From the NCBI RefSeq assembly GCF_003086295.3, contig NC_092048.1, forward strand, positions 65,638,841-65,702,840: a stretch of DNA of 64,000 bases, given 5' to 3'. The DNA comes from Arachis hypogaea. Taxonomy: Eukaryota; Streptophyta; Magnoliopsida; Fabales; Fabaceae. Below are positions 17,400-58,536 of this stretch, one piece after another (the stretch's first letter is position 1; the number at the start of each line of letters is the position of its first letter). A program made the translations under genes and the position numbers. The notes below the pieces were generated by a model, which had not been told where the DNA came from, made no database searches, and saw nothing but the letters and a program-made list of their open reading frames with translations.

Positions 17400-17445
17400 A
17401 GAAAAGCGTCAGTTGAAGCAACCTTTCCACTTGCACATCTTAGCA

Positions 17446-18942: not shown

Positions 18943-18981
18943 TTAGCATGATAACATGCTAATGTTTAAGTGTGGGGAGGT
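18943..18981 (+). promoter_or_regulatory. Hairpin and polypurine tract before the 3' LTR of I
   Basis: Stem TTAGCATG, loop ATAA, CATGCTAA (18943-18962), then TTTAAGTGTGGGGAGGT directly at the LTR start. The purine tract would prime plus-strand DNA synthesis. Confidence 0.75.
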
Positions 18982-29626: not shown

Positions 29627-31428
29627 TGATGAGATATTTTGATGAGAAACGAATCTCTCACAAAACACACAAAACTAGCCGCCAAGTGTACCGGGTCGTA
29701 TCAAGTAATAAAAACTCACGGGAGTGAGGTCGATCCCACAGGGATTGAAGGATTGAGCAATTTTAGCTTAGTGGTTGATTTAGTCAAGCGAATCAAATGT
29801 TGGTTGGGTGATTTGTGATTTGCAGAATGTAAATTGCATGAAATCAAAGAGAGCGGGAAAGTAAATTGCTGAAACTTAAAGAACAAGAAATTAAATAGCA
29901 GAAACTTAAAGTGCAAGAAATGTAAATTGCGGAATCTTAAAGTGCAAGAAATGTAAATTGCTTGAAATGTAAAGGGGATTGGGATGTGGATTTGCAGAAT
30001 TTAAACACAGAAAAGTTGAATTGCATTAAACAGAAGAGGAAAAGGGGATTGGGATTGAACCGGATCTTGAAGCAGTGAAGTAAATGAAGAGAAAAAGCAA
30101 TAAACAGGGAATTGAAATGAGAAATTCAGATCTCAGGACCCAGAGACTAGAAAACCAAGTCTAGATCTCAATGCCTTCTTAGATCCAACAAGAACAATAG
30201 CAAGGAAATTGTAAATTGCAAAGAAAAGAGATGAAGAACAATAAACCGGAAATGAAATTCAGTAAATAAAGCAGAGAGATCCAAGATTGAGATTGAAACA
30301 GAATTTCTTCAATTCTCCAATCCAAGATCCAAGACAAAATGTAAAATGAAATTGAAAGCAATGAAAACAAGAAATTAAAGTTCACTCAAGTTCAAAAGCT
30401 CTCCGAAAACTATATTTAAAATTCTAAAAGGAAAGCTCCCAAAGGAAAACTCTCCAGGAAAAGCTCTCCTAATAACTTGAATTCTATCCTATTTATACAC
30501 TTCCCAAAAATGATCTTCAAGCCTTGAGTTGGGCCTTTGTTCTTGGTGGAATTGGGTTGAAAGAGGCCTTGGTTGATTGCTCTTGAAGATTGAAGAAGAA
30601 CCGAAGTGAACCAATTGAACCGGTTTTTGAAGTTGGCCAAAGATGATCTCAACGTTAGGGTCAAAGTTAGGGGTCTAACTTTGCCCCTAACTTTTCATAG
30701 CAGCAAGCTTGATTTCCTGGTTTGGACGTTGGTGCCAACGTTAGGGGTCTAACTTTGACCCTAACGTTGGCAATGCTTATTGCTAGTGGCGCCAACGTTA
30801 GCCTCCAAGTTAGGGGGCTAACGTTGGCGCAAACGTTGGCCTTCCTCCTTTGTGATTCAAGTGCCAACGTTAGCCTCCAAGTTAGGGGGCTAACGTTGGC
30901 GCAAACGTTGGCCTTCCCTCTTTGTATTTTAAGTGCCAACGTTAGTGCCCAGGGGAGAAACTCTCAAGTTCCAACGTTAGCCTCCAAGTTAGGGGGCTAA
31001 CGTTGGAGCTAACGTTGGCCACTTCCAGGGAGTGATTTACATGCCCAACGTTAGCCTCCAAGTTAGGGGGCTAACGTTGGGGCTAACTTCATGCAACCCG
31101 GTTCAATTTTCACTTATTCCATTGTCCTTTCTTCACTCCTAGCCATTCCTCTTTGCTTCAACCTTTCTCCAAGCCTTCTTCACCTATCATTGATCAACCA
31201 AACTAATCAAAGCTTTGCTCAAAATCATGAGGTATTCAATCTTCCACAATATGCAACAAATATAGTTCAAAACCTCATGAAATGGCATGAATTCACATAT
31301 GGTTGGTTCAATCAAGGGAAACATGAAAATCTACTCAATTAGCTTGCTTGTAGCTTAAGAAAGTGCATAATTCTAATGAAAACTAAAGAAAAAGACTAGC
31401 TAAAATGGGCTAAGATGACTTGTCATCA
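29627..31428 (-). repeat. 3' LTR of E
   Basis: 1802 bp. Palindrome array at 30650-31090; TATA box (minus TATAAATAG) at 30489-30497. ORFs such as 30722-31000 are translations of the palindromes. Confidence 0.93.
30650..31090 (-). repeat. CCAACGTTAG palindrome array in E's 3' LTR
   Basis: Four copies of a roughly 36-bp imperfect palindrome, with arms CCAACGTTAGCC and GGCTAACGTTGG around CTCCAAGTTAGGG, plus partial copies. The same array is at 34337-34777 in the other LTR. It sits upstream of the LTR TATA box. Confidence 0.85.
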
Positions 31429-31465
31429 CAACACCAAACTTAAAGCTTGCTTGTCCCCAAGCAAG
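31429..31465 (-). promoter_or_regulatory. Hairpin and PPT of E
   Basis: Minus strand: stem CTTGCTTG, loop GGGA, CAAGCAAG (31465-31446), then CTTTAAGTTTGGTGTTG up to the LTR. Compared with C, the outer pair is changed from G-C to C-G. Confidence 0.7.
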
Positions 31466-32924
31466 AAATAGATTTATGCTCCAAGGTTCTTTCAATTAAG
31501 ATGGATTGAGGAACACTTGTAAAGTGCAGTGAGTGAAGTGATCAAGTATCAGTGGGGTGAACTCTAAATTATATGCTCATGCAAGGGCTTCAGTGCTCAC
31601 TAGTCCTTACATATTGGGAGTCGTGGGTCTTAGGATTTTCATCCAAATGGTATCATGGAGATCTCTTTATATGTAATCACCTTGAAGCAGCTTATAGTTT
31701 CTGTGCTTTGGCCTCGACTCTAAGTATCATGTCTCAAGGCGGCTCTTTAGATAAGCTTTCAATCAATACTCCTAAACCAGTTGGTTTTAAGGTATTAGGT
31801 GTTGAAACACCCCTAAGGATTTACTTGCTCAAGCCTCTTTCCTTGACACACTTCAACCACAAGCATTTACTAGGATAACAACTCTTTGAGTTTTTGTTAC
31901 TTTCTTTCTTTTTCTGCCTAGTAATTGATGCTCAGAGCCTTGGGCCATATTCCTTTTGTTTTTGTTTGCTGCTTCTTGGATCAATAGATTTTTGAGAATC
32001 TCCACAATACTTCTTTGAATTTCATGTCCCGCCTATGAGCTCCCATGCAAGTTTTCACAAGCATGCAACCTCAATACATTATCATACAACTAGAACCACC
32101 ACTTCTCCTAATCTTTTGCTTGCCTCAAAATTGTTTAATTCCTCAATTCTTTCTTCTCAAAGAACTTTCATGTGATGCATTTCTTGGAAATTGAGTGCAA
32201 ACAAGTTTTGAAGATGAGAATGTTGTGAATGATCAAACATCTTGCTTATTGAATTATAGAGAAAGACTTATGCTATGCAGGCAAAGGTAATAAAAAAGAA
32301 ACTATGTTATGCAGATAGGCAGGGCAGATCAGAATACAATCCAACTTTCAATTTCAGCAATATTTTATGTAAAACAATGACTTAACAATACAACCTGTTG
32401 AAGTTTACTTGCTTTCCTTCTTCTCATCATCATCATTGCTGGCCTTTAAGTTCATCTTTTGTTTCTTTGGTTGATGATGCTTAGTCCTTCCAACAGCTTG
32501 TATGGACCTCTGCAATGATATTGAAAGTTGCTTGTTCCCCAAGCACTTGGAAACAATGGTTAATTTTTCATGATTTATTTGCGGGCTTTTTGAACTTACT
32601 TTGGTGTGGGAACACCAAACTTAGTACCTTGCCAATGGTTAACCATTTGCGATAATTTCTTTTTTTCTTTTTCAAAAGTAAAAGAACTGGAAACTAAGAA
32701 AAACAGTAAAATGGCTAACTAGTTCATCCAGTATGCTTGAAGCCTACATTATGCAAGAAGTGAGAATGTGTTTTATAATGGGATTTTGGTGAAACACCAA
32801 ACTTAGAATCCTGCATTCTCCTTTAGATTGTTTTGGTGTGCAACACCAAACTTAGCTTCTTGCATTATAGATAAAACTAATTAACCGTTTTATTAAAATT
32901 GCTATGAAAAGAAAACTACCTCAG
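31466..32924 (-). other. 3' non-coding stretch of E
   Basis: No supported gene. ACACCAAACTTA boxes recur near 32608, 32792 and 32842, and a pyrimidine-rich run lies near 31897-31920 (purine-rich in the element's sense). Confidence 0.5.
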
Positions 32925-32971
32925 GTTGGGTTGCCTCCCAACAAGCGCTCTTTTATTGTCACTAGCTTGAC
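32925..32971 (-). promoter_or_regulatory. Post-stop two-hairpin module of E
   Basis: Minus strand: stem GTCA/TGAC (32971-32958), an AAAAGAGCGCT box, then stem GTTGGG, loop AGGCAA, CCCAAC (32942-32925). It begins 17 nt after a TGA at 32988-32990. Confidence 0.65.
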
Positions 32972-32987
32972 ATCCTTCATTCTTTGA

Positions 32988-33060
32988 TCATGGAGGCTGA
33001 AAATCATAGTGCCTCAGCTTTTCTCCTCTCACTATGGACTTCCTTACTGTCTCCTCCATT
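32988..33060 (-). pseudogene. Remnant polyprotein tail in E
   Basis: The minus frame ends KSIVRGEKLRHYDFQPP, stop at 32988-32990. It matches the end of B's tail (RGDKLRHYDHQPP). Only about two dozen codons survive in front of the stop. Upstream I find no gag. Confidence 0.6.
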
Positions 33061-33289
33061 TCTTGGTGCCCTTCTTCAGAAATTCCAAAGGTGGAGAACT
33101 CTCTCCTGGTTCATGTCATACAACCAAATCAGCAAAGATGCACAGAGCATTCTGTAGCTTGAGTGCAGTGGGGGTTAGTAGAGACAAAGTCTCAAACAGT
33201 TAGTGTGCAAGTCAAAAATTAAAGAAACAGAAAAGAAAAAATGCTTGATCTAGATCACCACCTCACTTAATCATTGTCAATCTAATCAA

Positions 33290-33307
33290 TCCCCGGCAAC
33301 GGCGCCA
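33290..33307 (-). other. Primer-binding site of E
   Basis: A perfect 18-nt match to the tRNA-Asp complement (TGGCGCCGTTGCCGGGGA) on the minus strand. Confidence 0.85.
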
Positions 33308-33313
33308 AAAACT

Positions 33314-35115
33314 TGATGAGATATTTTGATGAGAAACGAATCTCTCACAAAACACACAAAACTAGCCGGCAAGTGTACCGGGTCGTATCAAGTAATAAAA
33401 ACTCACGGGAGTGAGGTCGATCCCACAGGGATTGAAGGATTGAGCAATTTTAGCTTAGTGGTTGATTTAGTCAAGCGAATCAAATGTTGGTTGGGTGATT
33501 TGTGATTTGCAGAATGTAAATTGCATGAAATTAAAGAGAGCGGGAAAGTAAATTGCTGAAACTTAAAGAACAAGAAATTAAATAGCAGAAACTTAAAGTG
33601 CAAGAAATGTAAATTGCGGAATCTTAAAGTGCAAGAAATGTAAATTGCTTGAAATGTAAAGGGGATTGGGATGTGGATTTGCAGAATTTAAACACAGAAA
33701 AGTTGAATTGCATTAAACAGAAGAGGAAAAGGGGATTAGGATTGAACCGGATCTTGAAGCAGTGAAGTAAATGAAGAGAAAAAGCAATAAACAGGGAATT
33801 GAAATGAGAAATTCAGATCTCAGGACCCAGAGACTAGAAAACCAAGTCTAGATCTCAATGCCTTCTTAGATCCAACAAGAACAATAGCAAGGAAATTGTA
33901 AATTGCAAAGAAAAGAGATGAAGAACAATAAACCGGAAATGAAATTCAGTAAATAAAGCAGAGAGATCCAAGATTGAGATTGAAACAGAATTTCTTCAAT
34001 TCTCCAATCCAAGATCCAAGACAAAATGTAAAATGAAATTGAAAGCAATGAAAACAAGAAATTAAAGTTCACTCAAGTTCAAAAGCTCTCCGAAAACTAT
34101 ATTTAAAATTCTAAAAGGAAAGCTCCCAAAGGAAAACTCTCCAGGAAAAGCTCTCCTAATAACTTGAATTCTATCCTATTTATACACTTCCCAAAAATGA
34201 TCTTCAAGCCTTGAGTTGGGCCTTTGTTCTTGGTGGAATTGGGTTGAAAGAGGCCTTGGTTGATTGCTCTTGAAGATTGAAGAAGAACCGAAGTGAACCA
34301 ATTGAACCGGTTTTTGAAGTTGGCCAAAGATGATCTCAACGTTAGGGTCAAAGTTAGGGGTCTAACTTTGCCCCTAACTTTTCATAGCAGCAAGCTTGAT
34401 TTCCTGGTTTGGACGTTGGTGCCAACGTTAGGGGTCTAACTTTGACCCTAACGTTGGCAATGCTTATTGCTAGTGGCGCCAACATTAGCCTCCAAGTTAG
34501 GGGGCTAACGTTGGCGCAAACGTTGGCCTTCCTCCTTTGTGATTCAAGTGCCAACGTTAGCCTCCAAGTTAGGGGGCTAACGTTGGCGCAAACGTTGGCC
34601 TTCCCTCTTTGTATTTTAAGTGCCAACGTTAGTGCCCAGGGGAGAAACTCTCAAGTTCCAACGTTAGCCTCCAAGTTAGGGGGCTAACGTTGGAGCTAAC
34701 GTTGGCCACTTCCAGGGAGTGATTTACATGCCCAACGTTAGCCTCCAAGTTAGGGGGCTAACGTTGGGGCTAACTTCATGCAACCCGGTTCAATTTTCAC
34801 TTATTCCATTGTCCTTTCTTCACTCCTAGCCATTCCTCTTTGCTTCAACCTTTCTCCAAGCCTTCTTCACCTATCATTGATCAACCAAACTAATCAAAGC
34901 TTTGCTCAAAATCATGAGGTATTCAATCTTCCACAATATGCAACAAATATAGTTCAAAACCTCATGAAATGGCATGAATTCACATATGGTTGGTTCAATC
35001 AAGGGAAACATGAAAATCTACTCAATTAGCTTGCTTATAGCTTAAGAAAGTGCATAATTCTAATGAAAACTAAAGAAAAAGACTAGCTAAAATGGGCTAA
35101 GATGACTTGTCATCA
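33314..35115 (-). repeat. 5' LTR of E
   Basis: 1802 bp. Palindrome array at 34337-34777; TATA box at 34176-34184; U5 hairpin CTCAC, loop TCCC, GTGAG at 33402-33415. Confidence 0.93.
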
Positions 35116-36682: not shown

Positions 36683-38439
36683 TGGTGCACGAAATTGTGA
36701 TGTCCAGGCTCAAACAATCCCCGGCAACGTGAGCAACTTGGTGCTCTGATCTCAATACATAATTGTCACAACTTCGATACAACTAACCAGCAAGTGCACT
36801 GGGTCGTCCAAGTAATACCTTACGTGAGTAAGGGTCGAATCCCACGGAGATTGTTGGTATGAAGCAAGCTATGGTCACCTTGCAAATCTCAGTCAGGCGG
36901 ATATAAAATAATCATGGAGTTTTCGAATAATAAATAATAGAATAGGGATAGAGATACTTATGTAAATCATTGGTAGGAATTTCAGATAAGCGAATGGAGA
37001 TGCTTTTCATTCCTCTGAACCTCTGCTTTCCTACTATCTTCATCCAATCAGTCTCACTCCTTTCCATGGCTGGCTTTATGTGATACATCACCACTGTCAA
37101 TGGCTACTTTCGGTCATCTCTCAAGAAAATGATCCAATGCCCTGTCACGGCACGGCTAATCGTCTGGAGGCATCACCCTTGCCAATGGCTTCATCTTATC
37201 CTCTCAGTGAATAATATGCTCACGCACCCTGTCACGGCATGGCTATTCATCTGTCGGTTCTCGATCATGCTGGAATAGGATTTACTATCCTTTTGCGTCT
37301 GTCACTAACGCCTTGCAATCGCGAGTTTGGAGCTCGTCACAGTCATTCATTCATCGAATCCTACTTGGAATACCACAGACAAGGTTTAGACTTTCCGGAT
37401 TCTCTTGAATGCCGCCATCATTCTAGCTTACGCCACGAAGATTCTGGTTAAGAGATCTAAGAGATATTCATTCTAGCTTATTTCATGTAGAACGGAAGTG
37501 TTTGTCAGGCACGCGTTCATAAGGGAGAAGGATGATGAGCGTCACACATAATCATCACCTTCATCACGTTCTTGGGTGCGAATGGATATCTTAGAAGTGA
37601 AATAAGAATAATTGAATAGAAAATAGTAGTACTTTGCATTAATCTTTGAGGAACAGCAGAGCTCCACACCTTAATCTATGGAGTATAGAAACTCTACCGT
37701 ATGAAAATACATAAGTGAAGGTCCAGGCATGGCCGAGATGGCCAGCCCCCTAAACGAGATCAATAGTCTCCTAAGATGAACAATGGAATAAAACTGAGAC
37801 CAAAGATGCCTAATACAATAGTAAAAGGTCCTATTTATAATAAACTAGTCACTAGGGTTTACATGAGTAAGTAATTGATGCATAAATCCACTTCCGGGGC
37901 CCACTTGGTGTGTGTTTGGGCTGAGCTTAAGTGTTGCACGTGAAGAGGCCATTTTTGGAGTTGAACGCCAGTTTCTGTGCCAGTTTGGGCGTTCAACTCT
38001 GGTTTTGGATCCTTTTCTGGCGCTGGACGCCAGATTTGGGCAGAAGGCTGGCGTTGAACGCCAGTGTACGTCGTCTATTCTTGGCCAAAGTATGGACTAT
38101 TATATATTGCTGGAAAGCCCTGGATGTCTACTTTCCAATGCAATTGGAAGCGCGCCATTTCGAGTTCCGTAGCTCCAGAAAATCCACTTTGAGTGCAGGG
38201 AGGTCAGAATCCAACAGCATCAGCAGTCCTTCTTCAACGTCTGAATCTGATTTTTGCTCAAGTCCCTCAATTTCATCCAGAAAATACCTGAAATTACAGA
38301 AAAACACACAAACTCATAGTAAAGTCCAGAAATGTGAATTTAACATAAAAACTAATGAAAACATCCCTAAAAGTAACTAGATCCTACTAAAAACATACTA
38401 AAAACAATGCCAAAAAGTGTATAAATTATCCGCTCATCA
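36683..38439 (-). repeat. 3' LTR of C
   Basis: 1757 bp. GGCGTT palindromes at 37955-38068; TATA box (minus TATAAATAG) at 37831-37839; a captured primer-binding-site-like block at 36710-36735. Confidence 0.95.
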
Positions 38440-38478
38440 CAACACCAAACTTTAAATTGTTGCTTGTCCCCAAGCAAC
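38440..38478 (-). promoter_or_regulatory. Hairpin and PPT of C
   Basis: Minus strand: stem GTTGCTTG, loop GGGA, CAAGCAAC (38478-38459), then AATTTAAAGTTTGGTGTTG to the LTR start. H has the same stem, G has one mismatch and F has a wobble pair. Confidence 0.7.
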
Positions 38479-39561
38479 TGAAAATCAAATAGGATAAAAA
38501 GAAAAGAATATACTATAAACTCCAAACTATCAGTGAAACAGAGCTTCAATCATATGAGCGGGACTTATAGCTTTTTGCCTCTTGAATAGTTTTGGCATCT
38601 CACTTTATCCATTGAGGTTCAGAATGATTGGCATCTATAGGAACTCAGAGTTCAGATAGTGTTATTGATTCTCCTAGTTCAGTATGATGATTCTTGAACA
38701 CAGCTATTTCATGAGTCTTGGCCGTGGCCCTAAGCACTTTGTTTTCCAGTATTACTACCGGATACATAAATGCCACAGACACATAATTGGGTGAACCTTT
38801 TCAGATTGTGACTCAGCTTTGCTAAAGTCCCCAATTAGAGGTGTCCAGGGTTCTTAAGCACACTCTTCTTTTGCTTTGGACCTTGACTTTAACCGCCCAG
38901 TCTCAAGTTTTCACTTGACACCTACACGCCACAAGCACATGGTTAGAGACAACTTGGTTTAGCCGCTTAGACCAGGATTTTATTCCTTTAGGCCCTCCTA
39001 TCCACTGATGCTCAAAGCCTTGGGATCCTTTTTATTTGACCTTGCCTTTTGGTTTTAAGGGTTATTGGCTTTTTCTGCTTGCTTTTTCTTTTTTCTTTCT
39101 ATTTTTTTTTCTATTTTTTTTTTCGCCCTTTTTTTTTTCTGCAAGCTTTGTTCTTTGCTGCTTTTTCTTGCTTCAAGAATCATTTTTATGATTTTTCAGA
39201 TTATCGAATAACATGTCTCCTAGTCATCATTCTTTCAAGAGCCAACATATTTAACATTCTTAAACAACAACTTCAAAAGACATATGCACTGTTCAAGCAT
39301 ACATTCAGAAAACAAGAAGCATTGTCACCACATCAATATAATTAAGCTAAGTTCAAGGATAAATTCGAAACTCATGTACTTCTTGTTCTTTTGAATTAAA
39401 ATATTTTTCATTTAAGAGAGGTGATGGATTCATAGGACATTCATATCTTTAAGACAAAGTTACTAACTACTAATGATCATGTAATGAAGGCACAAACATA
39501 GATAAGCACATAACATAGAAAACGAAAAACAGAGAAAGCGAGAACAAGGAATGAATCCACC
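38479..39561 (-). other. 3' non-coding stretch of C with a long purine tract
   Basis: No supported gene. At about 39070-39145 the minus strand is nearly pure A/G (plus strand CTTTTTCTTTTTTC), a second candidate priming tract about 640 bp from the LTR. It is also present in G (52848-52912) and H (56838-56925). Confidence 0.5.
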
Positions 39562-40712
39562 TTAGTGATGGTGGCGTTTCCTTCTTGAGGAACCAATGAT
39601 GTCCTTGAGCTCTTCTATGTCTCTTCCTTGTCTTTGTTGCTCCTCCCTCATTGCTTTTTGATCTTCTCTTATTTCATGAAGCATGATGGAGTGCTCTTGA
39701 TGTTCCACCCTTAGTTGTCCCATATTGGAACTCAATTCTCCTAGGGAGGTGTTGATTTGCTCCCAATAGTTTTGTGGAGGAAAGTGCATTTGAGGCATTT
39801 CCGGATCTCATGGTGATGAGCTTCATACGCCTCTTGAGCTCCATGAATGGGCTCTCTTGCTTGCTCCATCTTTTTCTTAGTGATGGGCTTGTCCTCTTTA
39901 ATGAGGATATCTCCCTCTATGTCAATCCCAGCTGAATTGCATAGGTGGCAAATAAGGTGAGGAAAGGCTAACCTTGCCATAGTGGAAGACTTGTCAGCCA
40001 CCTTGTAAAGTTCTTGAGGTATAATCTCATGAACTTCCACCTCTTCTCCAATCATGATGCTATGGATCATGATGGCCCGGTCTATAGTAACTTCAGACCG
40101 GTTGCTAGTGGGAATGATTGAGCATTGAATGAACTCCAACCATCCTCTAGCTATAGGCTTGAGGTCCAATCTTCTTAGTTGAACCGGCTTGCCTTTGGAG
40201 TCAACCTTCCATTGAGCTCCTTCTACACATATGTCCATAAGGACTTGGTCCAACCTTTGATTAAAGTTGACCCTTCTGGTGTAGGGGCGTTCATCTCCTT
40301 GCATCATGGGCAAGTTAAACGCCAACCTCACATTCTCCGGACTAAAATCTAAGTATTTTCCCCGAACCATTGTAACATAGTTCTTTGGATCCGGGTTCTT
40401 ACTTTGATCATGGTTCTTGGTGATCCATGCATTGGCATAGAACTCTTGAACCATTAGGATGCCGACTTGTTGGATGGGATTTGTTAGATATTCCCAACCT
40501 CTTCTTTGAATTTCATGTCGGATCTCCGGATACTCATTTCTTTTGAGTTTAAAAGGGACCTCAGGGATCACCTTCTTCTTGGTCACAACATCATAGAAGT
40601 GGTCTTGATGGGCTTTGGAGATGAACCTTTCCATCTCCCATGACTTGGATGTGGAAGCTTTTGTCTTCCCTTTCCCCTTTCTAGAGGATTCTCCGGTCTT
40701 AGGTGCCATCAA
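39562..40712 (-). pseudogene. ORF2 of C: PF20167-like plant transposon protein in env position
   Basis: Start MAPKTGESSRKGK at about 40709, with a basic N-terminus. The domain RRGWEYLTNPIQQVGILMVQEFYANAW, VRGKYLDFSPENVRLAFNLP, LKPIARGWLEFIQCSIIPTSNRSEVTIDRAIMIHSIM and LARLAFPHLICHLCNSAG matches what I know as the 'putative plant transposon protein' domain (PF20167). A single-base deletion near 39803 shifts the frame. The C-terminal coiled coil (LGELSSNMGQLRVEHQEHSIMLHEIREDQKAMREEQQRQGRDIEEL) continues to 39562. The function is unknown to me. It has its own TATA box at 40898-40907. Related copies are in G, H and J. Confidence 0.8.
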
Positions 40713-40745
40713 TGGTAATGGAAAAACAAAAAAGCTATGCTTTTA

Positions 40746-40783
40746 CCACACCAAACTTAGAATATTGCTCGCCCTCGAGCAAT
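40746..40783 (-). promoter_or_regulatory. Hairpin and PPT-like box upstream of C's ORF2
   Basis: Minus strand: stem ATTGCTCG, loop AGGG, CGAGCAAT (40783-40764), then ATTCTAAGTTTGGTGTGG. This is the same layout as at the 3' LTR, but it lies in the 5' leader of ORF2. H has the counterpart at 58537-58573. Confidence 0.6.
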
Positions 40784-40897
40784 AAACAAAATAATAGAAG
40801 AAGAAGAAGAAGAAATATGGAGAGGGAGAGGGAGATGTGGTTTCGGCGAAGAAGAGTGTAGAGGGGTGTGTTGTGTGAATTTGATGAAGAATGGGGG

Positions 40898-40907
40898 TCT
40901 TTATATA
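40898..40907 (-). promoter_or_regulatory. Internal TATA box for ORF2 of C
   Basis: Minus strand TATATAAAGA, about 190 nt before the ORF2 ATG. It is followed by a CT-rich leader. H has TATATAAA at 58691-58698 at the same spacing. Confidence 0.55.
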
Positions 40908-41144
40908 GGGAAGGGAGGGGGGGTTAAGGTTCGGCCATATGGGTGGGTTTGGGTGGGAAATTGGTTTTGAATTTTTGAAGGTAGGTGGAGTTTATGAGGT
41001 AGGTTTATGGAGAAGAGTGGATGGATGTGAGTGGTGAAGAGGTGATGGGGAAGAGAGTTTGAGGTGATTGGTGAAGGGTTTTTGGGGAAGAGTGTTTATG
41101 GGGTTGTGTGAAAGAGAGTGGTGAGAAGAAGTGAGTGGAGGTAG

Positions 41145-41240
41145 GTGGGGATCCTGTGGGGTCCACAGATCCTGAGTGGATCTTGTGGGGTCCACAGATC
41201 CTGAGTGGATCCTGTGGGGTCCACAGATCCTGAGGTGTTC
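41145..41240 (-). repeat. Tandem repeat GATCCTGTGGGGTCCACA in C
   Basis: Three copies of a 33-bp unit (GATCCTGTGGGGTCCACAGATCC...), each with an inverted GTGG/CCAC core. H has a shorter version at 58868-58901. Confidence 0.75.
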
Positions 41241-41285
41241 AAGGATTTACATCCCTACACCCATTAGGCATGTAAAAATGCCTTT

Positions 41286-41475
41286 GTACCCAACTCTGGG
41301 CGTTCAGCGCCAGGTTGGTGGCCATTTTGGGCGTTCAATGCCCATTTGTGTGCCATTTCTGGCGTTGAACGCCAGAACCATGCCTGTTCTGGCGTTCAGC
41401 GCCCAGAAGCTGCCCATTTTGGGCGTTCAGCGCCAGCACCATGCTCTGTTCTGGCGCTGAACGCCAGACAGATGC
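41286..41475 (-). repeat. GGCGTT(n)AACGCC palindrome array upstream of ORF2 in C
   Basis: About seven copies of CTGGCGTTnAACGCCAG-like or GGGCGTTCAGCGCC-like palindromes. The same motif occurs in this element's LTRs (37955-38068, 47180-47300). The array lies 380-570 bp upstream of the internal TATA box. Confidence 0.8.
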
Positions 41476-41606
41476 TCCTCCAGGGTGTGATTTTTCTTCT
41501 GCTGTTTTTGATTCCGTTTTCAATTTTTATATTTATTTTGTGACTCCACATGATCATGAACCTACAAAGACATATAACTAAGGAAAATATAGTTAGATAA
41601 ATAAAA

Positions 41607-41653
41607 ATTGGGTTGCCTCCCAACAAGTGCTTCTTTAGTGTCAATAGCTTGAC
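41607..41653 (-). promoter_or_regulatory. Post-stop two-hairpin module of C
   Basis: Minus strand: stem GTCA/TGAC (41653-41640), an ACTAAAGAAGCACT box, then stem TTGGG, loop AGGCAA, CCCAA with an extra G-U pair (41624-41607). It begins 19 nt after the gag-protease stop (41673-41675). Confidence 0.65.
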
Positions 41654-41672
41654 AGTGGGCTCTCATGGAGCC

Positions 41673-44054
41673 TCACAGATGTGCAGAGCTTTGTTGAGAC
41701 TCTCCAACACCAAACTTAGAGTTTGGATATGGGAGTTCAACACCAAACTTAGAGTTTGGTTGTGGCCTCCCAACACCAAACTTAGAGTTTGACTGTGGGG
41801 GCTCTGGTTGACTCTGCTTTGAGAGAAGCTTTTTCTGCTTCCTCTCCATGGTTGCAGAGGGAGATTCTTGAGTTTTAAACACAAGGGAGTCCTCATTCCA
41901 TTGAAGGACTATTTCACCTCTGTCAACATCAATCACAGCTCTTGCTGTGGCCAGGAAAGGTCTTCCTAGGATGATGGATTCATCCTCTTCCTTTCCAGTA
42001 TCCAGGACTATGAAATCAGTAGGGATGTAAAGGCCTTCAACCTTTACTAACACGTCCTCTACTTGTCCATAAGTCTGTTTTCTTGAACTGTCTGCCATCT
42101 CTAATGAGATTTTAGCAACTTGCACCCCATAGATTCCCAGTTTCTCTATCACAGAGAGGGGCATGAGGTTTATTCCTGAACCAAGGTCACATAGAGCCTT
42201 AAAGATCATGGTGCCTATGGTACAGGATATTATGAACTTTCCAGGATCCTGTCTCTTCTGAGGCAATGTCAGTTGATCCAGATCACTTAGTTCATTGATG
42301 AACAAGGGAGGTTCAACTTCCCAAGTATCAATGCCAAATAATTTGGCATTCAGCTTCATGATTGCACCATGAAACTTGGCAGTTTGCTCTTCAGTAACAT
42401 CCTCATTCTCTTCAGAAGAGGAATACTCATCAGAGCTCATGAAGGGCATAAGGAGGTTCAATGGAATCTCTATGGTCTCTAGATGAGTCTCAGATTCCTT
42501 TGGTTCCTCAGAGGGAAGCTCCTTATTGACCACTGGACGTCCTAGGGGGTCTTCCTCCTTGGGATTCACGTCCTCTCCTCTCCTCACAGGTTCGGCCATG
42601 GCGCTTATGTCAATGGCCTTGCACTCTCCTTTTGGGTTCTCTTCTGTATTGCTTGGGAGAGTACTAGGAGGGATTTCAGTGATCCTTTTACTCAGCTGGC
42701 CCACTTGTGCTTCCAGATTTCTAATGGAAGACCTTGTTTCATTCATGAAACTTACAGTGGCCTTAAATAGATCAGAGACTAGATTTGCTAAATTAGAAGC
42801 ATTTTGTTCAGAGTTCTCTGTCTGTTGCTGAGTTGATGATGGAAAAGGCTTGCTATTGCTAAACCTATTTCTTCCACCATTATTAAAGCCTTGTTGGGGC
42901 TTTTGATCCTTCCATGAGAAATTTGGATGATTTCTCCATGTTGAGTTATAGGTGTTTCCATAAGGTTCACCTAAGTAATTTACCTCTGTTATTGCAGGGT
43001 TCTCAGGATCATAAGCTTCTTCTTCAGGAGAAGCCTCTTGAGTACTGTTGGATGCAGCTTGCATTCCATGCAGACTCTGAGAGATCATATTGACTTGCTG
43101 AGTCAATATTTTATTCTGAGCCAATATGGCATTCAGAGTATCAACTTCAAGAACTCCCTTCTTCATAGGCGTCCCATTGTTCACAGGATTTCTTTCAGAA
43201 GTGTACATGAACTGGTTGTTAGCAACCATGTCAATGAGTTCTTGAGCTTCTGCAGGCATTTTCTTTAGGTGAATGGATCCACCTACAGAAGTGTCCAGTG
43301 ACATCTTTGATAGCTCAGATAAACCATCATAGAATATATCCAGGATAGTCCATTCTGAAAGCATGTCAGAAGGACACTTTTTGGTCATCTGTTTGTATCT
43401 TTCCCAAGCTTCATAGAGGGATTCACCTTCTTTCTGTCTGAAGGTTTGAACATCAGCTCTAAGCTTGCTCAGCTTTTGAGGAGGAAAGTACTTGGCTAAG
43501 AAAGCCGTGACCAGCTTATCCCAAGAGTTCAGGCTGTCTTTGGGTTGAGAATCCAACCATAATCTAGCTCTGTCTCTTACAGCAAAAGGGAAAAGCATGA
43601 GCATGTAGACTTCAGGGTCTACTCCATTAGTCTTAACAGTATCACATATCTGCAAGAATTCAGTCAAGAACTGAAAAGGATCTTCAGATGGAAGTCCATG
43701 AAACTTGCGGTTCTGCTGCATCAGAGAAACTAATTGAGGTTTCAGCTCAAAATTGTTTGCTCCAATGGCAGGAATGGAGATGCTTCTTCCATGTAAATTG
43801 GAATTTGGTGCAGTAAAGTCACCAAGCATCTTCCTTACATTATTATTATTTTCGACTGCCATCTCCTTTTCCTGTTCGAAAATTTCTGAAAGGTTTTCTC
43901 TGGATTGTTGTAATTTAGCTTCTCTTAGTTTTCTCTTCAGAGTCCTTTCAGGTTCTGGATCTGCTTCCACAAGAATGTTCTTATCCTTGCTCCTGCTCAT
44001 ATGACAAAGAAGAGGGCACAGAAAAATAATAATAATAGAGATTCTCTTTACCAC
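41673..44054 (-). CDS. Intact gag-protease ORF of element C
   Basis: 793 codons without a stop. The true start may be the second Met (MSRSKDK, about 44000), because the first 18 residues are hydrophobic and not conserved in B. The capsid domain (about residues 100-270) shows WLDSQPKDSLNSWDKLVTAFLAKYFPPQ and ESLYEAWERYKQMTKKCP. A Q/N-rich spacer follows, then an acidic region (SSDEYSSSEENEDVTEE). The protease is near residues 610-720 with CDLGSGINLMPLS and IILGRPFLATARAVIDV. The catalytic triad reads DLG, as in B. The C-terminus repeats NSKFGV three times. No zinc knuckle and no RT follow. The product could assemble particles and cut itself, but needs Pol from elsewhere. Confidence 0.9.
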   Translation of the reverse strand: MVKRISIIIIFLCPLLCHMSRSKDKNILVEADPEPERTLKRKLREAKLQQSRENLSEIFEQEKEMAVENNNNVRKMLGDFTAPNSNLHGRSISIPAIGANNFELKPQLVSLMQQNRKFHGLPSEDPFQFLTEFLQICDTVKTNGVDPEVYMLMLFPFAVRDRARLWLDSQPKDSLNSWDKLVTAFLAKYFPPQKLSKLRADVQTFRQKEGESLYEAWERYKQMTKKCPSDMLSEWTILDIFYDGLSELSKMSLDTSVGGSIHLKKMPAEAQELIDMVANNQFMYTSERNPVNNGTPMKKGVLEVDTLNAILAQNKILTQQVNMISQSLHGMQAASNSTQEASPEEEAYDPENPAITEVNYLGEPYGNTYNSTWRNHPNFSWKDQKPQQGFNNGGRNRFSNSKPFPSSTQQQTENSEQNASNLANLVSDLFKATVSFMNETRSSIRNLEAQVGQLSKRITEIPPSTLPSNTEENPKGECKAIDISAMAEPVRRGEDVNPKEEDPLGRPVVNKELPSEEPKESETHLETIEIPLNLLMPFMSSDEYSSSEENEDVTEEQTAKFHGAIMKLNAKLFGIDTWEVEPPLFINELSDLDQLTLPQKRQDPGKFIISCTIGTMIFKALCDLGSGINLMPLSVIEKLGIYGVQVAKISLEMADSSRKQTYGQVEDVLVKVEGLYIPTDFIVLDTGKEEDESIILGRPFLATARAVIDVDRGEIVLQWNEDSLVFKTQESPSATMERKQKKLLSKQSQPEPPQSNSKFGVGRPQPNSKFGVELPYPNSKFGVGESQQSSAHL

Positions 44055-45885
44055 AGTATAGAGGTTCCCTTATGTGAGTGGAAAAAAAAGAGGAAGAAAT
44101 TCGAACACAGATAGAAGAGGGGGTTCGAATTTGGTGATGATGTGAGGGAGAGATGTTAGTAGATAAATAATTAAATAGAATAAGATGAGAGAGAAGGAAG
44201 GAATTTTCGAAAATTTTTGAAAAGGAGTTATTGATTTTTGAAAATGGTTTTTGAAAATTGTTATTTTTTTTTTTTGAAAAATTTTTTTGAAATTAAAAAT
44301 AAAAAATAAAAATAATTAGTTAATTAGAAAGAAATTTTTGAAAAAGAGGGAAGATATTTTCGAAAATGAGAGAGAGAGAGTTAGTTAGGTGGTTTTGAAA
44401 AAGTTAAGAAACAAACAAAAAGTTAGTTAGTTAGTTGAAACAAATTTTGAAAAGATAAGAAGTTAGGAAGTTAGAAAAGATATTTGAAAAGATATTTTTG
44501 AAAAAGATAAGATAAGAAGATATTTTTGAAAAGATATGATAAAATTAGTTTTGAAAAAGATTTGATTTTTAAAATCACAATTAATGACTTGATTCATAAG
44601 AAATCACAAGATATGATTCTAGAACTTAAAGTTTGAATCTTTCTTAACAAGTAAGTAACAAACTTGAAATTTTTGAATCAAAACATTAATTGATTATGTT
44701 ATTTTCGAAAATTTGGTATAAAAATAAGAAAAAAATTTTTGAAAAATATTTTTGGAATTTTCGAAAATAACTAAGAATTTTTGAAAAAGATTTGATTTTT
44801 GAAAAAGATTTTGAGCAAGATAAGATTTTCAAATTGAAAATTTGATTTGACTCATAAGAAACAACTTGATTTTAAAATTTTTTTGAAAAGGTCAACTCAA
44901 ATTTTCGAATTTGATGAGAGAAAAATGGAAAGATATTTTTTTTATTTTTGAATTTTTATGATGAGAGAGAAAAACACTAAAAAGATGCAATGCATGAAAT
45001 TTTTAGATCAAAACATGTGATGCATGCAAGAATGCTATGAATGTCAAGATGAACACCAAGAACACTTTGAATGTCAAGATGAACATCATAGATACAATTT
45101 TGAAAAATTTTTAATGCAAAGAAAACATGCAAGACACCAAACTTAGAATTCTTTAATGCTTAGACACTAAGAATTCAAGAATGCATATGAAAAACAATAA
45201 AAGACACAAAACAAAAAATCATCAAGATCAAACAAGGAGACTTACCAAGAACAACTTGAAGATCATGAAGAACACTATGAATGCATGAAATTTTCGAAAA
45301 ATGCAAGATGCACATGCAAATGACACCAAACTTATAACATGACTCAAGACTCAAACAAGAAACAGAAAAATATTTTTGATTTTTATGATTTTCTAATTTT
45401 TTTTGGATTTTTTTGAAAATTAATTGAAAAAGAAAAAATAAGGATTCCAAAATTTTTAACATGAATTCCAGGAATCTTGCATTCTTAGTCTAAAGCTTTA
45501 GTCCAGGAATTAGACATGGATCACTAGCCAGCCAAGCTTTCAATGAAAGCTCCGGTCCAAAACACTAGACATGGCCAATGGCCAGCCAAGCTTCAGCATG
45601 TAATTCAGACATGACATGCCTGACATACCCTACAGTCGTGTAACAACTGATGGTTGGAAGCCTCAGTCCAAAAGAATTTAGACATGGCTTTACAGCCAGG
45701 CAGGCTTCACATGCTTCATGAAACACTAGAATTCATTCTTTAAAAATTTTGAAAATTTTTTTTTTTTTCAAAAACAGGTGAGAAAATTTTGAAATATTTT
45801 TTAAAAAATTTTAAAAAAGAAAACAAAAAGAAAATTACCTAATCTGAGCAACAAGATGAACCGTCAGTTGTCCAAACTCGAACAA
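44055..45885 (-). other. Leader of element C
   Basis: About 1.83 kb without a supported gene. From 44080 to 44990 the minus strand is almost free of G (TTTTCAAAAATC-type words). A TAAGTTTGGTGT box with an upstream inverted repeat GAATTCTT/AAGAATTC lies at 45133-45176, and a second box near 45325. The frame at 45175-45462 has no domain. Confidence 0.55.
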
Positions 45886-45903
45886 TCCCCGGCAACGGCG
45901 CCA
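45886..45903 (-). other. Primer-binding site of C
   Basis: A perfect 18-nt tRNA-Asp-type site on the minus strand, six bases from the LTR end at 45910. Confidence 0.88.
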
Positions 45904-45909
45904 AAAACT

Positions 45910-47666
45910 TGGTGCACGAAATTGTGATGTCCAGGCTCAAACAATCCCCGGCAACGTGAGCAACTTGGTGCTCTGATCTCAATACATAATTGTCACAACT
46001 TCGATACAACTAACCAGCAAGTGCACTGGGTCGTCCAAGTAATACCTTACGTGAGTAAGGGTCGAATCCCACTGATATTGTTGGTATGAAGCAAGCTATG
46101 GTCACCTTGCAAATCTCAGTCAGGCGGATATAAAATAATCATGGAGTTTTCGAATAATAAATAATAGAATAGGGATAGAGATACTTATGTAAATCATTGG
46201 TAGGAATTTCAGATAAGCGAATGGAGATGCTTTTCGTTCCTCTGAACCTCTACTTTCCTACTATCTTCATCCAATCAGTCTCACTCCTTTCCATGGCTGG
46301 CTTTATGTGATACATCACCACTGTCAATGGCTACTTTCGGTCATCTCTCGGGAAAATGATCCAATGCCCTGTCACGGCACGGCTAATCGTCTGGAGGCAT
46401 CACCCTTGCCAATGGCTTCATCTTATCCTCTCAGTGAATAATATGCTCACGCACCCTATCACGGCACGGCTATTCATCTGTCGGTTCTCGATCATGCTGG
46501 AATAGGATTTACTATCCTTTTGCGTCTGTCACTAACGCCCTGCAATCGCGAGTTTGGAGCTCGTCACAGTCATTCATTCATCGAATCCTACTCGGAATAC
46601 CACAGACAAGGTTTAGACTTTCCGGATTCTCTTGAATGCCGCCATCATTCTAGCTTACGCCACGAAGATTCTGGTTAAGAGATCTAAGAGATATTTATTC
46701 TAGCTTATTTCATGTAGAACGGAAGTGTTTGTCAGGCACGCGTTCATAAGGGAGAAGGATGATGAGCGTCACACAAAATCATCACCTTCATCACGTTCTT
46801 GGGTGCGAATGGATATCTTAGAAGCGAAATAAGAAGAATTGAATAGAAAACAGTAGTACTTTGCATTAATCTTTGAGGAACAGCAGAGCTCCACACCTTA
46901 ATCTATGGAGTGTAGAAACTCTACCGTATGAAAATACATAAGTGATGGTCCAGGCATGGACGAGATGGCCAGCCCCCTAAACGAGATCAATAGTCTCCTA
47001 AGATGAACAATGGAATAAAACTGAGACCAAAGATGCCTAATACAATAGTAAAAGGTCCTATTTATAATAAACTAGTCACTAGGGTTTACATGAGTAAGTA
47101 ATTGATGCATAAATCCACTTCCGGGGCCCACTTGGTGTGTGTTTGGGCTGAGCTTAAGTGTTGCACGTGCAGAGGCCATTTTTGGAGTTGAACGCCAGTT
47201 TCTGTGCCAGTTTGGGCGTTCAACTCTGGTTTTGGATCCTTTTCTGGCGCTGGACGCCAGATTTGGGCAGAAGGCTGGCATTGAACGCCTGTTTACGTCG
47301 TCTATTCTTGGCCAAAGTATGGACTATTATATATTGCTGGAAAGCCCTGGATGTCTACTTTCCAACGAAATTGGAAGCTCTCCATGTCGAGTTCTGTAGC
47401 TCTAGAAAATCCACTTTGAGTGCAGGGAGGTCAGAATCCAACAGCATCAGCAGTCCTTCTTCAACCTCTGAATCTGATTTTTGCTCAAGTCTCTCAATTT
47501 CATCCAGAAAATACCTGAAATCACAGAAAAACACACAAACTCATAGTAAAGTCCAGAAATGTGAATTTAACATAAAAACTAATGAAAACATCCCTAAAAG
47601 TAACTAGATCCTACTAAAAACATACTAAAAACAATGCCAAAAAGTGTATAAATTATCCGCTTATCA
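45910..47666 (-). repeat. 5' LTR of C
   Basis: 1757 bp. Palindromes at 47180-47300; TATA box at 47058-47066; U5 hairpin CCTTAC/GTAAGG at 46045-46060; captured primer-binding-site-like block at 45937-45962. Confidence 0.95.
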
Positions 47667-48059
47667 CGTGCGTGTCGCTAGAGAGCATAGCGTTCTTCTA
47701 AATAGAGCGTGGCACCAATGTTCATGTTGCAGGGGAATGTAGCGTTCTCCAAATGAGCGCTATGTTCTTCTGCCCTACCTCTTTCTTTCTATGCTTCTTC
47801 TTTTCATCTCTTCACCTACCATCAATCATACATGCAATCAAAGTCTCACCAAAATCATAAGGTTTTGCATCATTTCATAATAATCAAATAAATCTTGCAT
47901 AAATCTCATGATAATGCAGAAAATCAACAATGTTTGATTGAATTAAGATAAACATGAAATTTCAATCCAACTACTTACTTATTGTGCAAGAAATGCATGA
48001 AACCTAATGAAAACAAGTAAAATTCGCTAGTAAAACTAGCCTAAAATGACTTGTCATCA
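47667..48059 (-). repeat. 5' LTR of B, U3 start piece
   Basis: It resumes after C's duplicated CGTGC. It contains GAGCATAGCGTTCTTC-like palindromes near 47683-47775 and ends at TGATGACAAGTC (minus-strand LTR start). Confidence 0.8.
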
Positions 48060-48855: not shown

Positions 48856-50537
48856 TGGTGTACGGAATCGTGATCACACTTTTCACAACTCCGCACAACT
48901 AACCAGCAAGTGCACTGGGTCGTCCAAGTAATACCTTACGTGAGTAAGGGTCGATCCCACGGAGATTGTCGGCTTGAAGCAAGCTATGGTTATCTTGTAA
49001 ATCTTAGTCAGGAGATTAGTGATCAAAATGATTTCATTTATGAAAAGTAAATAACATGAAATAAATTTTACTTGTGATTCAGTAATGAGGAACAGGTTGA
49101 GGTTCCGGAGATGCTCTGTCGTCTGAATCTCTGCTTTCCTACTGTCTTCTTCTCCAAACAGGCATGGCTTCCTTCAATGGCAAGCTGTATATTGGTGGAT
49201 CACCATTGTCAATAGCTACCATCCGTCCTCTCGGATGAAAAATACTACCTACGGTTTCTGTACGGCTAATCATCTGTCGGTTCTCACTAGTGTCGGAATA
49301 GGATCTCTCTATCCTTTTGCACACTGTCACTGGGCCCAACATTCGTGAGTTTGAAGCTCGTCACAGTCATCCCTTCTCGGATCCTACTCAGAATATCACA
49401 GACAAGGTTTAGACTTTCCGGATTCCAGGAATGTTGCCAATTGGTTCTAGCCTCTTCCACGAAGGTTCTAATCCCACGAACTCGGTCCGTGGATTAGAGA
49501 CCCAAGAGATCCACACTCAAGCTGTCGCCCAGTGACTACGTTGAGCTCAGGTAGAACGGGAGTGGTTGTCAAGCACGCGTTCATAGATTTGAGAATGATG
49601 ATGAGTGTCACGGATCATCATATTCTCTACATTGAAGTACGAGTGAGTATCTTAGAACAGAATCAAGCGTGATTGAATAGAAAACAATAGTAATTGCATT
49701 AATCCGTTGAGACACAGCAGAGTTCCTCACCCCCACCTATGGGGTTTAGAGACTCATGCCGTAGAAAATACAATATGAGAAGTAAAATATCACGAGTTAC
49801 AAAATGAATCTCTAAAAGTAATTTTTATACTAAACTAGTAACTTAGGTTTACAGAAAATGAGTAACTAGGTGTAGATAGTGCAGAATTCCACTTTCGGGG
49901 CCTACTTGGTGAGTGTTTGGGCTGAGCTTTCAAGCTTCCACGTGCATATGCATCAAATTGGAGTTAAACGCCATCCTGGGTGCCAAAATGGGCGTTTAAC
50001 GCCCAGAAGTGTGCCAGTTCTAGCGTTTTACGCCAGAAAAGGGTCTCTGGCTGGCGTTTAACGCCAGTTTGGGCCATCAAATCTCGGGCAAAGTATGGAC
50101 TATTATATATTTCTGGAAAGCCCAAGATGTCTACTGTCCAACGCAATTAAAAAAGCACCAAATTGGGCTTCTGTAGCTCCAGAAAATCCACTTCGATTGC
50201 AGGAGGGTCAGAGTCTAACAGCATCTGCAGTCCTTTCTCAACCTCTGAATCAGATTTTTGCTCATGTCCTTCAATTTCAGCCAGAAAATTCCTGAAATCA
50301 CAGAAAAATATACAAACTCATAATAAAGTCCAGAAATGTGATTTTTGCATAAAAACTAATAAAAATATAATAAAAAGTAACTAAAACAAACTAAAAACTA
50401 TGTAAAAACAATGTCAAAATGGTATAAATTATCCACTCATGACAACACGAAACTTAAACTGTTACTTGTCCTCAAGCAACTAGATAAATAAAGTAGGATA
50501 AAAAGAAAAGAATGATGCAATAACATCTCAGAGTCTT
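48856..50537 (-). mobile_element. Element F: 3' LTR and 3' end (partial)
   Basis: LTR 48856-50442 (1587 bp) of the C/D family, with a changed terminus TCATGAGTGG. A 95-bp internal 3' end with a hairpin-PPT (50461-50480) follows. G then interrupts it. Palindromes at 49960-50070. The left flank is GCTGG (48851-48855). Confidence 0.75.
50443..50480 (-). promoter_or_regulatory. Hairpin and PPT of F
   Basis: Minus strand: stem GTTGCTTG, loop AGGA, CAAGTAAC (50480-50461), with a G-U wobble at pair 4, then AGTTTAAGTTTCGTGTTG. Confidence 0.6.
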
Positions 50538-52221
50538 TGGTGCACGAAATTGTGACTCACAGTTTTCACAACTCCGCACAACTAACCAGCAAGTGCATTG
50601 GGTCGTCCAAGTAATACCTTACGTGAGTAAGGGTTTATCCCACGGAGATTGTTGGCTTGAAGTAAGCTATGGTCATCCTGTAAATCTTAGTCAGGCGGAT
50701 TCAAATGGTTATGAGGTTTTGATAATTAAAAGATAAACAAAACATAAAATAAAATAAGATAGAGATACTTATGTAATTCATTGGTAGGAATTTTAGATAA
50801 ACGTTTAGAGATGCTTTGTTGCTTCTGAACCCTGCTTTCCTACTGTCTTCTTCCAATCATGCGTGCTCCCTTCCATGGCAAGATGTATGATCCACTCGGA
50901 TGAAAAATACCAGGTACGATCTCTGCACGGCTAATCAACTGTCGGATTTCTCGTCTCGGATGAAAAATACCAGGTACAGCTACCGCACGGCTAATCATCT
51001 GTCAGTTCTCACTAGCGTCAAAATAGGATCTCTCTATCCTTATGCACACTGTCACTGCGCCCAACATTTACAAGTTTGAAGCTCGTCACAGTCATCCCTT
51101 CCCAGATCCTACTCGGAATACCACAGACAAGGTTTAGACTTTCCGGATCTCAGGAATGCTGCCATTTGGTTCTAGTCTATACCATGAAGGTTCTAATCTC
51201 ACGGACTCGGTCTGTGTATTAGAGACCCAAGGGAATATACTCCGGCTGTCATCCAATGACTACATTGAACATCATGTAGACCGCTTGTGGTTGTCAGGCA
51301 CGCGGATCTTGGCTAAGCGAGTAACGAAGATAGTGGGTGATTGTCACGGGTCACCCCTTCATTCTGACTTAACTTAATTAAGTACGAGAGTATATCTTGG
51401 AGAAGAGGTAAGCGAGAATTGAAAGAGAAACAATAGTACTTGCATTAATTCATGAAGAACAGCAGAGCTCCGCACCTTAATCTATGATGTGTAGAAACTC
51501 CACCGTAGAAAATACATAAGAGAAAAAGGTCTAGGCATGGCCGTGAGGCCAGCCTCCCAACATGAACAATGGCATAAGCTAGATTAAAAGATACAAATAC
51601 AATAGTAAAAAGTGCTTTTTATACTAAACTAGTAACTTAGGTTTACAGAAAATGAGTAACTAAGTGCAGATAGTGTAGAAATCCACTTCCAGGGCCCACT
51701 TGGTGTGTGCTTGGGCTGAGCATTGAAGCTTTCACATGCATAGGCCATTCTTAGAGTTAAACGTCAGCTTGGGTGCTAGTTTGGGCGTTTAACTCCAGTT
51801 CTGGCGTTGTACTCCAGAAAAGGGTCTTTGATGGGCGTTTGAACACCAGTTTGGGCCATCAAATCTCGAGAAAAGTATGAACTATTATATATTTCTGGAA
51901 AGCCCAAGATGTCTACTTTCCAACTCAATTGAGAGTGCGCCAATTGGGCTTCTGTAGCTCCAGAAAATCCACTTCGAGTGCAGGAGGGTCAAAATCCAAC
52001 AGCATCTGCAGTCCTTTCTCAGCCTCTGAATCAGATTTTTGCTCAGGTCCCTCATTTCAACCAGAAAATACCTGAAATCATAGAAAAACACACAAACTAA
52101 TAGTATCTAGAAATGTGATTTTTGCATAAAAACTAATAAAAATATAATAAAAAGTAGCCAAAATATACTAAAAACTATATAAAAAATAATGCCAAAAAGG
52201 GTATAAATTATCCGCTCATCA
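50538..52221 (-). repeat. 3' LTR of G
   Basis: C/D-type LTR. GGCGTTTAACTCC-like palindromes at 51755-51860; U5 hairpin CCTTAC/GTAAGG near 50617-50632. Confidence 0.85.
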
Positions 52222-52259
52222 CAACACCAAACTTAAATTGTTGCTTGTCCCCAAGAAAC

Positions 52260-54498: not shown

Positions 54499-54560
54499 TA
54501 ATGGTTATGGAAAAACAAAAAGCAGAGCTTTTTTCACAACAAGCTTAAAAGGTTCGCTCG

Positions 54561-56175: not shown

Positions 56176-56213
56176 CAACACCAAATTTAAATTGTTGCTT
56201 GTCCCCAAGCAAC
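56176..56213 (-). promoter_or_regulatory. Hairpin and PPT of H
   Basis: Minus strand: stem GTTGCTTG, loop GGGA, CAAGCAAC (56213-56194), then AATTTAAATTTGGTGTTG. Confidence 0.65.
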
Positions 56214-58499: not shown

Positions 58500-58536
58500 T
58501 AATGGTTATGGAAAAACAAAAAGCAATGCTTTTACC

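Follow-up and report, generated by a model that had tools for sequence, protein, structure and literature searches.

The window, a stretch of 64,000 nucleotides of Arachis hypogaea DNA, was found by self-comparison to contain nested LTR elements. Four of these, with two open reading frames of element C, are placed as follows:

4488–24842 (+), element A, which encloses element I
12152–20448 (+), element I, inside A, with target duplication GTAAT
29627–35115 (-), element E, with a complete LTR pair and target duplication CCTTC
36683–47667 (-), element C, with a complete LTR pair and target duplication GCACG
41676–44069 (-), gag-protease open reading frame of C (Retrotrans_gag, 1.1e-18; Asp_protease, 2.6e-4, which is under the cut-off of that domain)
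39744–40742 (-), Transposase_32 open reading frame of C (4e-38), downstream of an internal hairpin described below

Elements F, G, H and J, all on the (-) strand, are partial; within 50535–59436, G and H seemingly share one LTR (54599–56175) in a chain of the form LTR-internal-LTR-internal. With 798 residues, the gag-protease frame of C exceeds every other open frame in the window, and on the strand opposite to it lies a match to the plant snoRNA family snoR71 of Rfam (43359–43466, +; 41.9 bits, cut-off 40). The best named relatives of the Transposase_32 frame come from A. hypogaea and A. stenosperma and are 83–92% identical over 74–91% of the length. Relatives of the gag protein are spread across many flowering plants; 402 were found, proteins of more than 1.75 times the query length having been left out of the candidates. 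Among the best 120 of these 402, eight carry an RT_RNaseH-type domain and none carries RVT_3 or RNase_H, which points to a partner with a single RNase H that is not HIV-like. No RT domain was detected in the elements that bear the hairpin, among the 20 open reading frames scanned of 27 with at least 130 residues.

The primer-binding site TGGCGCCGTTGCCGGGGA, which we take to be complementary to tRNA-Asp, has seven matches in the window with at most three mismatches (0.02 expected), including positions just inside the 5′ LTRs of C, E and I. The hairpin-bearing elements thus combine a primer site for a tRNA other than tRNA-Met with a retrotransposon gag and protease. Non-Met tRNA primers are described for the OTA (Ogre/Tat/Athila) superclade of Ty3/gypsy elements (PMC6317226), and a related soybean element is reported to use tRNA-Asp (PMC1142308). 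Element A encodes, in order, RT, RT_RNaseH_2, RVT_3/RNase_H and rve domains, and has an antisense Transposase_28 open reading frame (20921–21436, -; 6.4e-9) between pol and the 3′ LTR. Retand (Tat) elements are described as having an additional RNase H, placed between RNase H and integrase (PMC6317226), and an antisense TRP28 open reading frame between pol and the 3′ LTR (PMC11963269), and element A therefore bears marks of Retand.

Hairpins at terminal and internal boxes

At seven of the eight 3′ LTR junctions examined (C, E, F, G, H, I and J), a hairpin of 7–8 bp with a 4-nt loop precedes a box of the AAGTTTGGTGTTG or AAGTGTGGGGAGG type, which in turn adjoins the LTR; the loop is mostly RGGA among the copies in the window. 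Element A, at the remaining junction, has no such stem upstream of its own 3′ LTR. In C, H, I and J one internal box is marked by a hairpin in addition to the terminal box, and in E, F and G the terminal box alone is marked. The copies at the 3′ junctions, with the boxes that are polypurine tracts (PPTs) by position, are

38459–38478 (-), hairpin of C, GTTGCTTG/GGGA/CAAGCAAC, 8/8 Watson–Crick pairs
38440–38452 (-), box AAGTTTGGTGTTG of C, positional PPT adjoining the 3′ LTR
31446–31465 (-), hairpin of E, 8/8 pairs, the outer pair being C-G and not G-C
31429–31441 (-), box of E, positional PPT, the stem base lying 17 nt from the TG of the LTR
50461–50480 (-), hairpin of F, loop AGGA, one G-U pair
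52240–52259 (-), hairpin of G, 7/8 pairs, one T.C mismatch
56194–56213 (-), hairpin of H, with the same sequence as that of C, GTTGCTTG/GGGA/CAAGCAAC
60926–60945 (-), hairpin of J, TAGCATG/AGGA/CATGCTA, 7 pairs
18943–18962 (+), hairpin of I, TTAGCATG/ATAA/CATGCTAA, 8/8 pairs
18968–18980 (+), box AAGTGTGGGGAGG of I, positional PPT, with the LTR starting at 18982 as placed by the target duplication GTAAT

and those at internal sites are

17446–17463 (+), hairpin of I, TGCACCG/AGGA/CGGTGCA, followed by a box at 17470–17482
62593–62610 (-), hairpin of J, AGCATCG/AGGA/CGATGCT, followed by a box from 62585
40764–40783 (-), hairpin of C, ATTGCTCG/AGGG/CGAGCAAT, followed by a box from 40758 and immediately upstream of the Transposase_32 open reading frame
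58554–58573 (-), hairpin of H, TTTGCTCA/GGGA/CGAGCAAA, 7/8 pairs with a loop-closing A.C, followed by a box from 58547
54553–54572 (-), copy of G, right arm alone, with the 3′ end of an LTR in place of the left arm

All eight sets of coordinates in the original prediction display the sequences ascribed to them, including the flipped outer pair of E, the G-U pair of F, the ATAA loop of I, the stem of J and the internal hairpins given for C, I and J. The single mismatch of G and the want of a hairpin before the 3′ LTR of A are likewise confirmed. The closeness of hairpin and box that it described holds as well, although the distance from the end of the stem to the first base of the box is 4–7 nt instead of 2–6 nt. 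The internal hairpin of H and the right arm in G had not been listed. In the latter, the LTR end ATCACAATTTCGTGCACCA, which is the terminal sequence of the LTRs of C, is fused exactly at the border between loop and right arm, so that this copy was interrupted and not worn down. Across 54553–54600 (-) the LTR 3′ end ATCACAATTTCGTGCACCA is preceded by an LTR and a partial primer-binding site, and it looks as if an element had inserted at the centre of the palindrome.

The start of the 3′ LTR of C is fixed at 38439 by the 5-bp target duplication GCACG. In a 320-nt context the stem at this junction is predicted with a pairing probability of 0.98, and nine of the 12 copies have predicted stem probabilities of 0.81–1.00; the 3′ junction hairpin of E reaches just 0.35, that of G 0.02 and the broken copy of G no more than 0.02. 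The loop is RGGA or RGGG in ten of the 11 two-armed copies and a closing G-C is likewise kept in ten of 11. The 30 nt upstream of the hairpin contain at least 70% pyrimidine in eight of the 12 copies, compared with 8% of random 30-mers.

Conservation of pairing and association with boxes

The window contains 19 perfect hairpins of at least 7 bp with a 4-nt loop, compared with about four expected from a first-order Markov model (30 simulations), and eight of the 19 directly precede a box. When box-like sites are defined by at most one mismatch to AAGTKTGGKG (47 in the window), 11 of them have a hairpin with at most one bad pair ending 2–7 nt upstream, compared with 2.2% of all positions, a background that includes the 11 sites themselves; the other 36 sites have none. 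The 11 sites are related by descent and are thus not 11 independent events; in our judgement they represent about four to six independent stem sequences. The best strict Watson–Crick stem in the 30 nt upstream of each site was also compared with 1000 shuffles of that stretch. Shuffled flanks equalled the real stem in 0–2 of 1000 trials at nine of the 11 sites, but far more often at the 3′ junctions of F (444/1000) and G (379/1000), where the strict rule disallows the G-U pair of the one and the mismatch of the other.

Best upstream stems of only 2–5 bp were found within 30 nt of 15 of the 36 hairpin-less boxes (those at the gag-protease end, in the 5′ untranslated region, in the interior of E and others), and hence the hairpin is not a general companion of the box. 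Stems with an RGGR loop and at least seven Watson–Crick pairs number nine in the window, eight of which stand directly before a box; the ninth (32600–32619, +) is the antisense of a box of E and its complement. A tenth RGGR-loop stem (18415, +), with six Watson–Crick pairs and one G-U, has no box alongside. A full covariance model built with Infernal from the 11 sites scores 45–56 bits on those same sites, 18 bits at the next-best site in the window and at most 19.8 bits on 47 viral loci with default filters. As a negative control, 43 chance combinations of GAGGAC with a box in viral loci showed no more than three stem pairs around the loop. Pattern scans of viral and genome contigs and protein-guided scans of viral contigs yielded no recognisable plant element locus, four of these scans (the protein-guided ones among them) giving no locus whatsoever and the 25 records matched by pattern among genome contigs all being titled as bacteria, and blastn of a 49-nt query against phages gave weak partial matches only. 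Rfam 15 has no match at gathering score at the hairpin sites; its sole match in the window is the snoR71 site elsewhere.

An alignment of 12 copies, comprising 11 distinct rows related by ancestry and including the broken copy of G, was used to assess covariation. Paired cells amount to 90.9%, compared with 64.4% in shuffled alignments, and the covariation score is 0.709 compared with 0.196; none of 500 shuffles, which keep the shared ancestry, was as high by either measure. Two-sided changes occur in seven of the eight stem pairs (shuffled mean 4.2; 6/500 as high), and sliding the partner by 1–3 columns leaves at most 53.4% of cells paired. For six representative stems (the 3′ junction copies of C, E and I and the internal copies of C, I and J), 47 of 48 cells are paired, a value reached by the true pairing alone among the 720 permutations of right arms. 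The differences between groups are two-sided and end as standard pairs in 1/1 cases between the 3′ junction copies of C and E, 2/2 between the 3′ and internal copies of C, 3/3 between the 3′ copies of C and I and 7/7 between the 3′ copy of I and the internal copy of J. One-sided or unpaired differences are found in the 3′ copies of F and G, in the outer pairs of the 3′ copy of J and the internal copy of I, and in the inner pair of the internal copy of H.

When the terminal and internal sites of one element are compared in C, H, I and J, the boxes show 0–1 differences over their first ten letters and the stems differ at 2–7 pairs; the box keeps its sequence and the hairpin keeps its structure. 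Among C, F, G and H the hairpin is conserved in sequence at 17 of 20 columns, which is no better than the adjoining start of the LTR (33 of 40). Save for stretches of 62–93 bp, no relationship links the LTRs in the C-type, E and I/J groups, and yet the hairpin module is common to all three groups. A model built from the C, E, F, G and H copies retrieved the held-out I and J copies weakly (E values of 0.07, 0.61, 1.1 and 2.0); all four were placed at or near their true positions, yet ranked below several hairpin-less boxes. Selection on structure, claimed from stems that change while pairing stays, is supported by the measures of pairing and covariation. A cis element of conserved structure, shared by three or more groups of Arachis elements whose LTRs are for the most part unrelated, is well supported.

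Comparison with known systems

A near likeness is found in the Sireviruses (Ty1/copia), for which an inverted repeat around the junction of PPT and 3′ LTR has been described and proposed to guide RNase H (PMC2829016). As in Arachis, a conserved stem-forming repeat is tied to the PPT of a plant LTR element, and several PPT copies occur per element. In the Sirevirus arrangement, however, the PPT and the attachment site form the loop between a left arm next to the PPT and a right arm within the 3′ LTR, whereas both arms of the Arachis hairpin are upstream of the box and the box is outside the loop. Furthermore, the upstream PPT copies of Sireviruses are described as lacking the repeat, in contrast to the internal copies of C, H, I and J. 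The accessible text of the same source also states that Athila4 and Calypso, which are Ty3/gypsy elements, have an extra internal PPT in the linker before the 3′ end, and mentions no hairpin there.

In HIV and SIV a conserved structure is described at both the terminal and the central PPT, but there the G-rich tract itself takes part in a helix with its 3′ end, unlike the separate upstream hairpin of Arachis (PMC4439019). The U-box or T-box of retroviral and Ty1 PPTs is comparable as an upstream aid to plus-strand priming; it adjoins the PPT, whereas the pyrimidine tract in Arachis is on the far side of the hairpin (PMC10085805). For Ty3 the PPT of a Ty3/gypsy element has been studied for structure in probed genomic RNA; there the PPT itself falls in a paired region of low probability, and the part of the source consulted mentions no upstream hairpin (PMC11381356). 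The original prediction knew of no description of such a hairpin. The portion of the open-licence literature surveyed likewise contained no case of this layout, in which a hairpin of its own precedes the terminal box and an internal one, but related PPT structures have been published, and these closest precedents (the Sirevirus repeat and the HIV structures at the PPT and central PPT), as far as described in the parts of the sources seen, differ in layout from the Arachis hairpin.

Probable role in plus-strand priming

The hairpin is very probably a structured part of the plus-strand primer signal. The box-to-TG gap of 0–1 nt in C, E and I is the position of a polypurine tract, and since the letters of the stem vary while its pairing is kept, the hairpin is probably a working part of the copying of the element. 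A structural mark may matter here because the C-type box, with seven purines in 13 positions, is a poor polypurine tract. The start of the LTR is separated from the last paired base of the stem by 19 nt in C, 17 in E, 18 in F, 18 in G, 18 in H, 19 in I and 20 in J, where the LTR starts of C, E and I are placed by target duplications, those of F and J by similarity and those of G and H by the edges of alignments. The original prediction had suggested that the hairpin stops or positions RNase H, or that it binds Gag or integrase; this narrow range makes the positioning of RT and its RNase H the most concrete reading. HIV RT is reported to cut the RNA template 18 bp behind the polymerase site or primer end (PMC3185654), and the match of 17–20 nt to this geometry is suggestive, although it could be accidental or inherited; common ancestry could also have kept the spacing between stem and LTR. 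The same source attributes a pausing of RT to the stiffness of the tract itself and suggests that the pause allows the cut between PPT and U3.

In such a mechanism RT would copy the box first during minus-strand synthesis and would meet the base of the stem next. A pause at that point would leave the box as an RNA/DNA hybrid within the enzyme and would bring RNase H near the boundary between box and LTR, so that the 3′ end of the primer could be cut precisely; an internal copy marked by a hairpin would serve as a second (central) primer site. We regard this pause-and-position mechanism as a reasonable possibility whose chance falls somewhat below even. The two active sites of Ty3 RT are reported to be only about 13 bp apart (PMC5371799), and with that spacing the cut would fall inside the box, which is a misfit of the geometry. 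The hairpin elements are without an RT of their own in the scanned frames and their relatives suggest a single RNase H; Tat elements, A included, carry a second one (PMC6317226). Also counting against the mechanism, the stems at the 3′ junctions of E (0.35) and G (0.02) are not the predicted fold in the 320-nt context, and A is free of the hairpin. The fuller explanation, a cis-acting RNA structure of the plus-strand primer signal in largely non-autonomous Ty3/gypsy elements of Arachis, has in our estimation about an even chance of being right. Its extension to a general module of plant OTA elements, in which a hairpin brake one RT footprint from the LTR selects both the box and the RNase H cut at terminal and internal sites and other boxes are ignored or masked by a downstream complement, appears doubtful.

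Several other roles would also place a palindrome before the box. It could act in minus-strand DNA as a terminator that halts an incoming plus strand, begun at an internal primer or at the 5′ end, and so spares the strand started at the box from displacement. The hairpin can form in the opposite strand too, and its place just upstream of the internal as well as the terminal box is one that incoming plus strands would reach, but a terminator gives no reason for the narrow distance of 17–20 nt, and the wobbles favour neither strand clearly (two sense G-U pairs, in the 3′ copy of F and the outer pair of the internal copy of J, against one A.C in the internal copy of H, a T-G in antisense); we consider this role unlikely. 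The near-constant purine loop and closing pair, together with the long gag-protease frame of C, would suit a binding site for Gag/nucleocapsid or integrase, used in packaging or in joining ends. Packaging alone would not need copies at both internal and terminal boxes, nor a place before a box, and the 3′ copy of I has an ATAA loop, so a protein-binding hairpin is improbable as well. For an expression signal, such as a translation start or the start of a subgenomic RNA, with the box as a passenger, one can cite the internal hairpin just upstream of the Transposase_32 frame in C and similarly in H; the internal copy of J is downstream of its Transposase_32 frame, and at the 3′ junctions the copies directly precede an LTR, which makes this role very improbable.

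Descent without function would require one ancestral inverted repeat to have been copied along with the box. Copies are indeed near-identical within a group, in homologous surroundings, and the window is rich in other palindromes and palindromic tandem repeats. Neutral decay, however, breaks pairs one side at a time, whereas the differences between groups are two-sided and end as standard pairs, and within one element the stems have diverged more than the boxes; a functionless palindrome is accordingly quite unlikely. Alternatively, the hairpin might prevent the box from pairing within the genomic RNA and so leave it exposed. Pairing of at least 7 bp with a downstream complement is seen for five of 15 hairpin-less boxes and for none of the 11 hairpin boxes, compared with 3.5% of random places, but the five boxes come from two elements and partly from tandem repeats and are thus only a lead. 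The predicted openness of the 11 hairpin boxes (0.08–0.45) is not above that of ten other boxes (0.13–0.69), which argues against a simple exposure role and leaves it with very little probability.

How RT/RNase H chooses the precise ends of the PPT is described as not fully understood (PMC3185511). If the positioning role of the hairpin is true, a natural hairpin maintained by compensatory changes, with a distance to the cut that hardly varies, would answer this question for one large group of plant elements in a simple way that can be tested directly, and in genome annotation the hairpin would help to separate true primer sites from PPT-like boxes.

Two further ideas were dropped in the course of the analysis. 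A likeness of the C-type left arm to a primer-binding site (GTTGCCGGGGA) is not shared by the I and J stems, and an argument from G-U pairs as to which strand forms the hairpin was given up because two against one is not decisive.

Boxes and repeats of other kinds also occur in these elements. Immediately behind each of three boxes inside E (32600–32622, 32785–32804 and 32832–32853, -) comes the complement of that box, CACCAAA, with which the box forms a stem of 7–8 bp. A hairpin-less box-like site with similar flanks is present in I (18083, +) and J (61791, -). In the gag-protease frame of C, about three 33-bp tandem repeats, each with an exact AAGTTTGGTGTTG box, occupy the 3′ end (41704–41798, -), and H has a box at 59416 similar to these. 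Upstream of the internal hairpin, both C (41297–41468) and H (58956–59157) contain 31-bp tandem repeats with a palindromic core of the TCTGGCGTT..AACGCCAG type.
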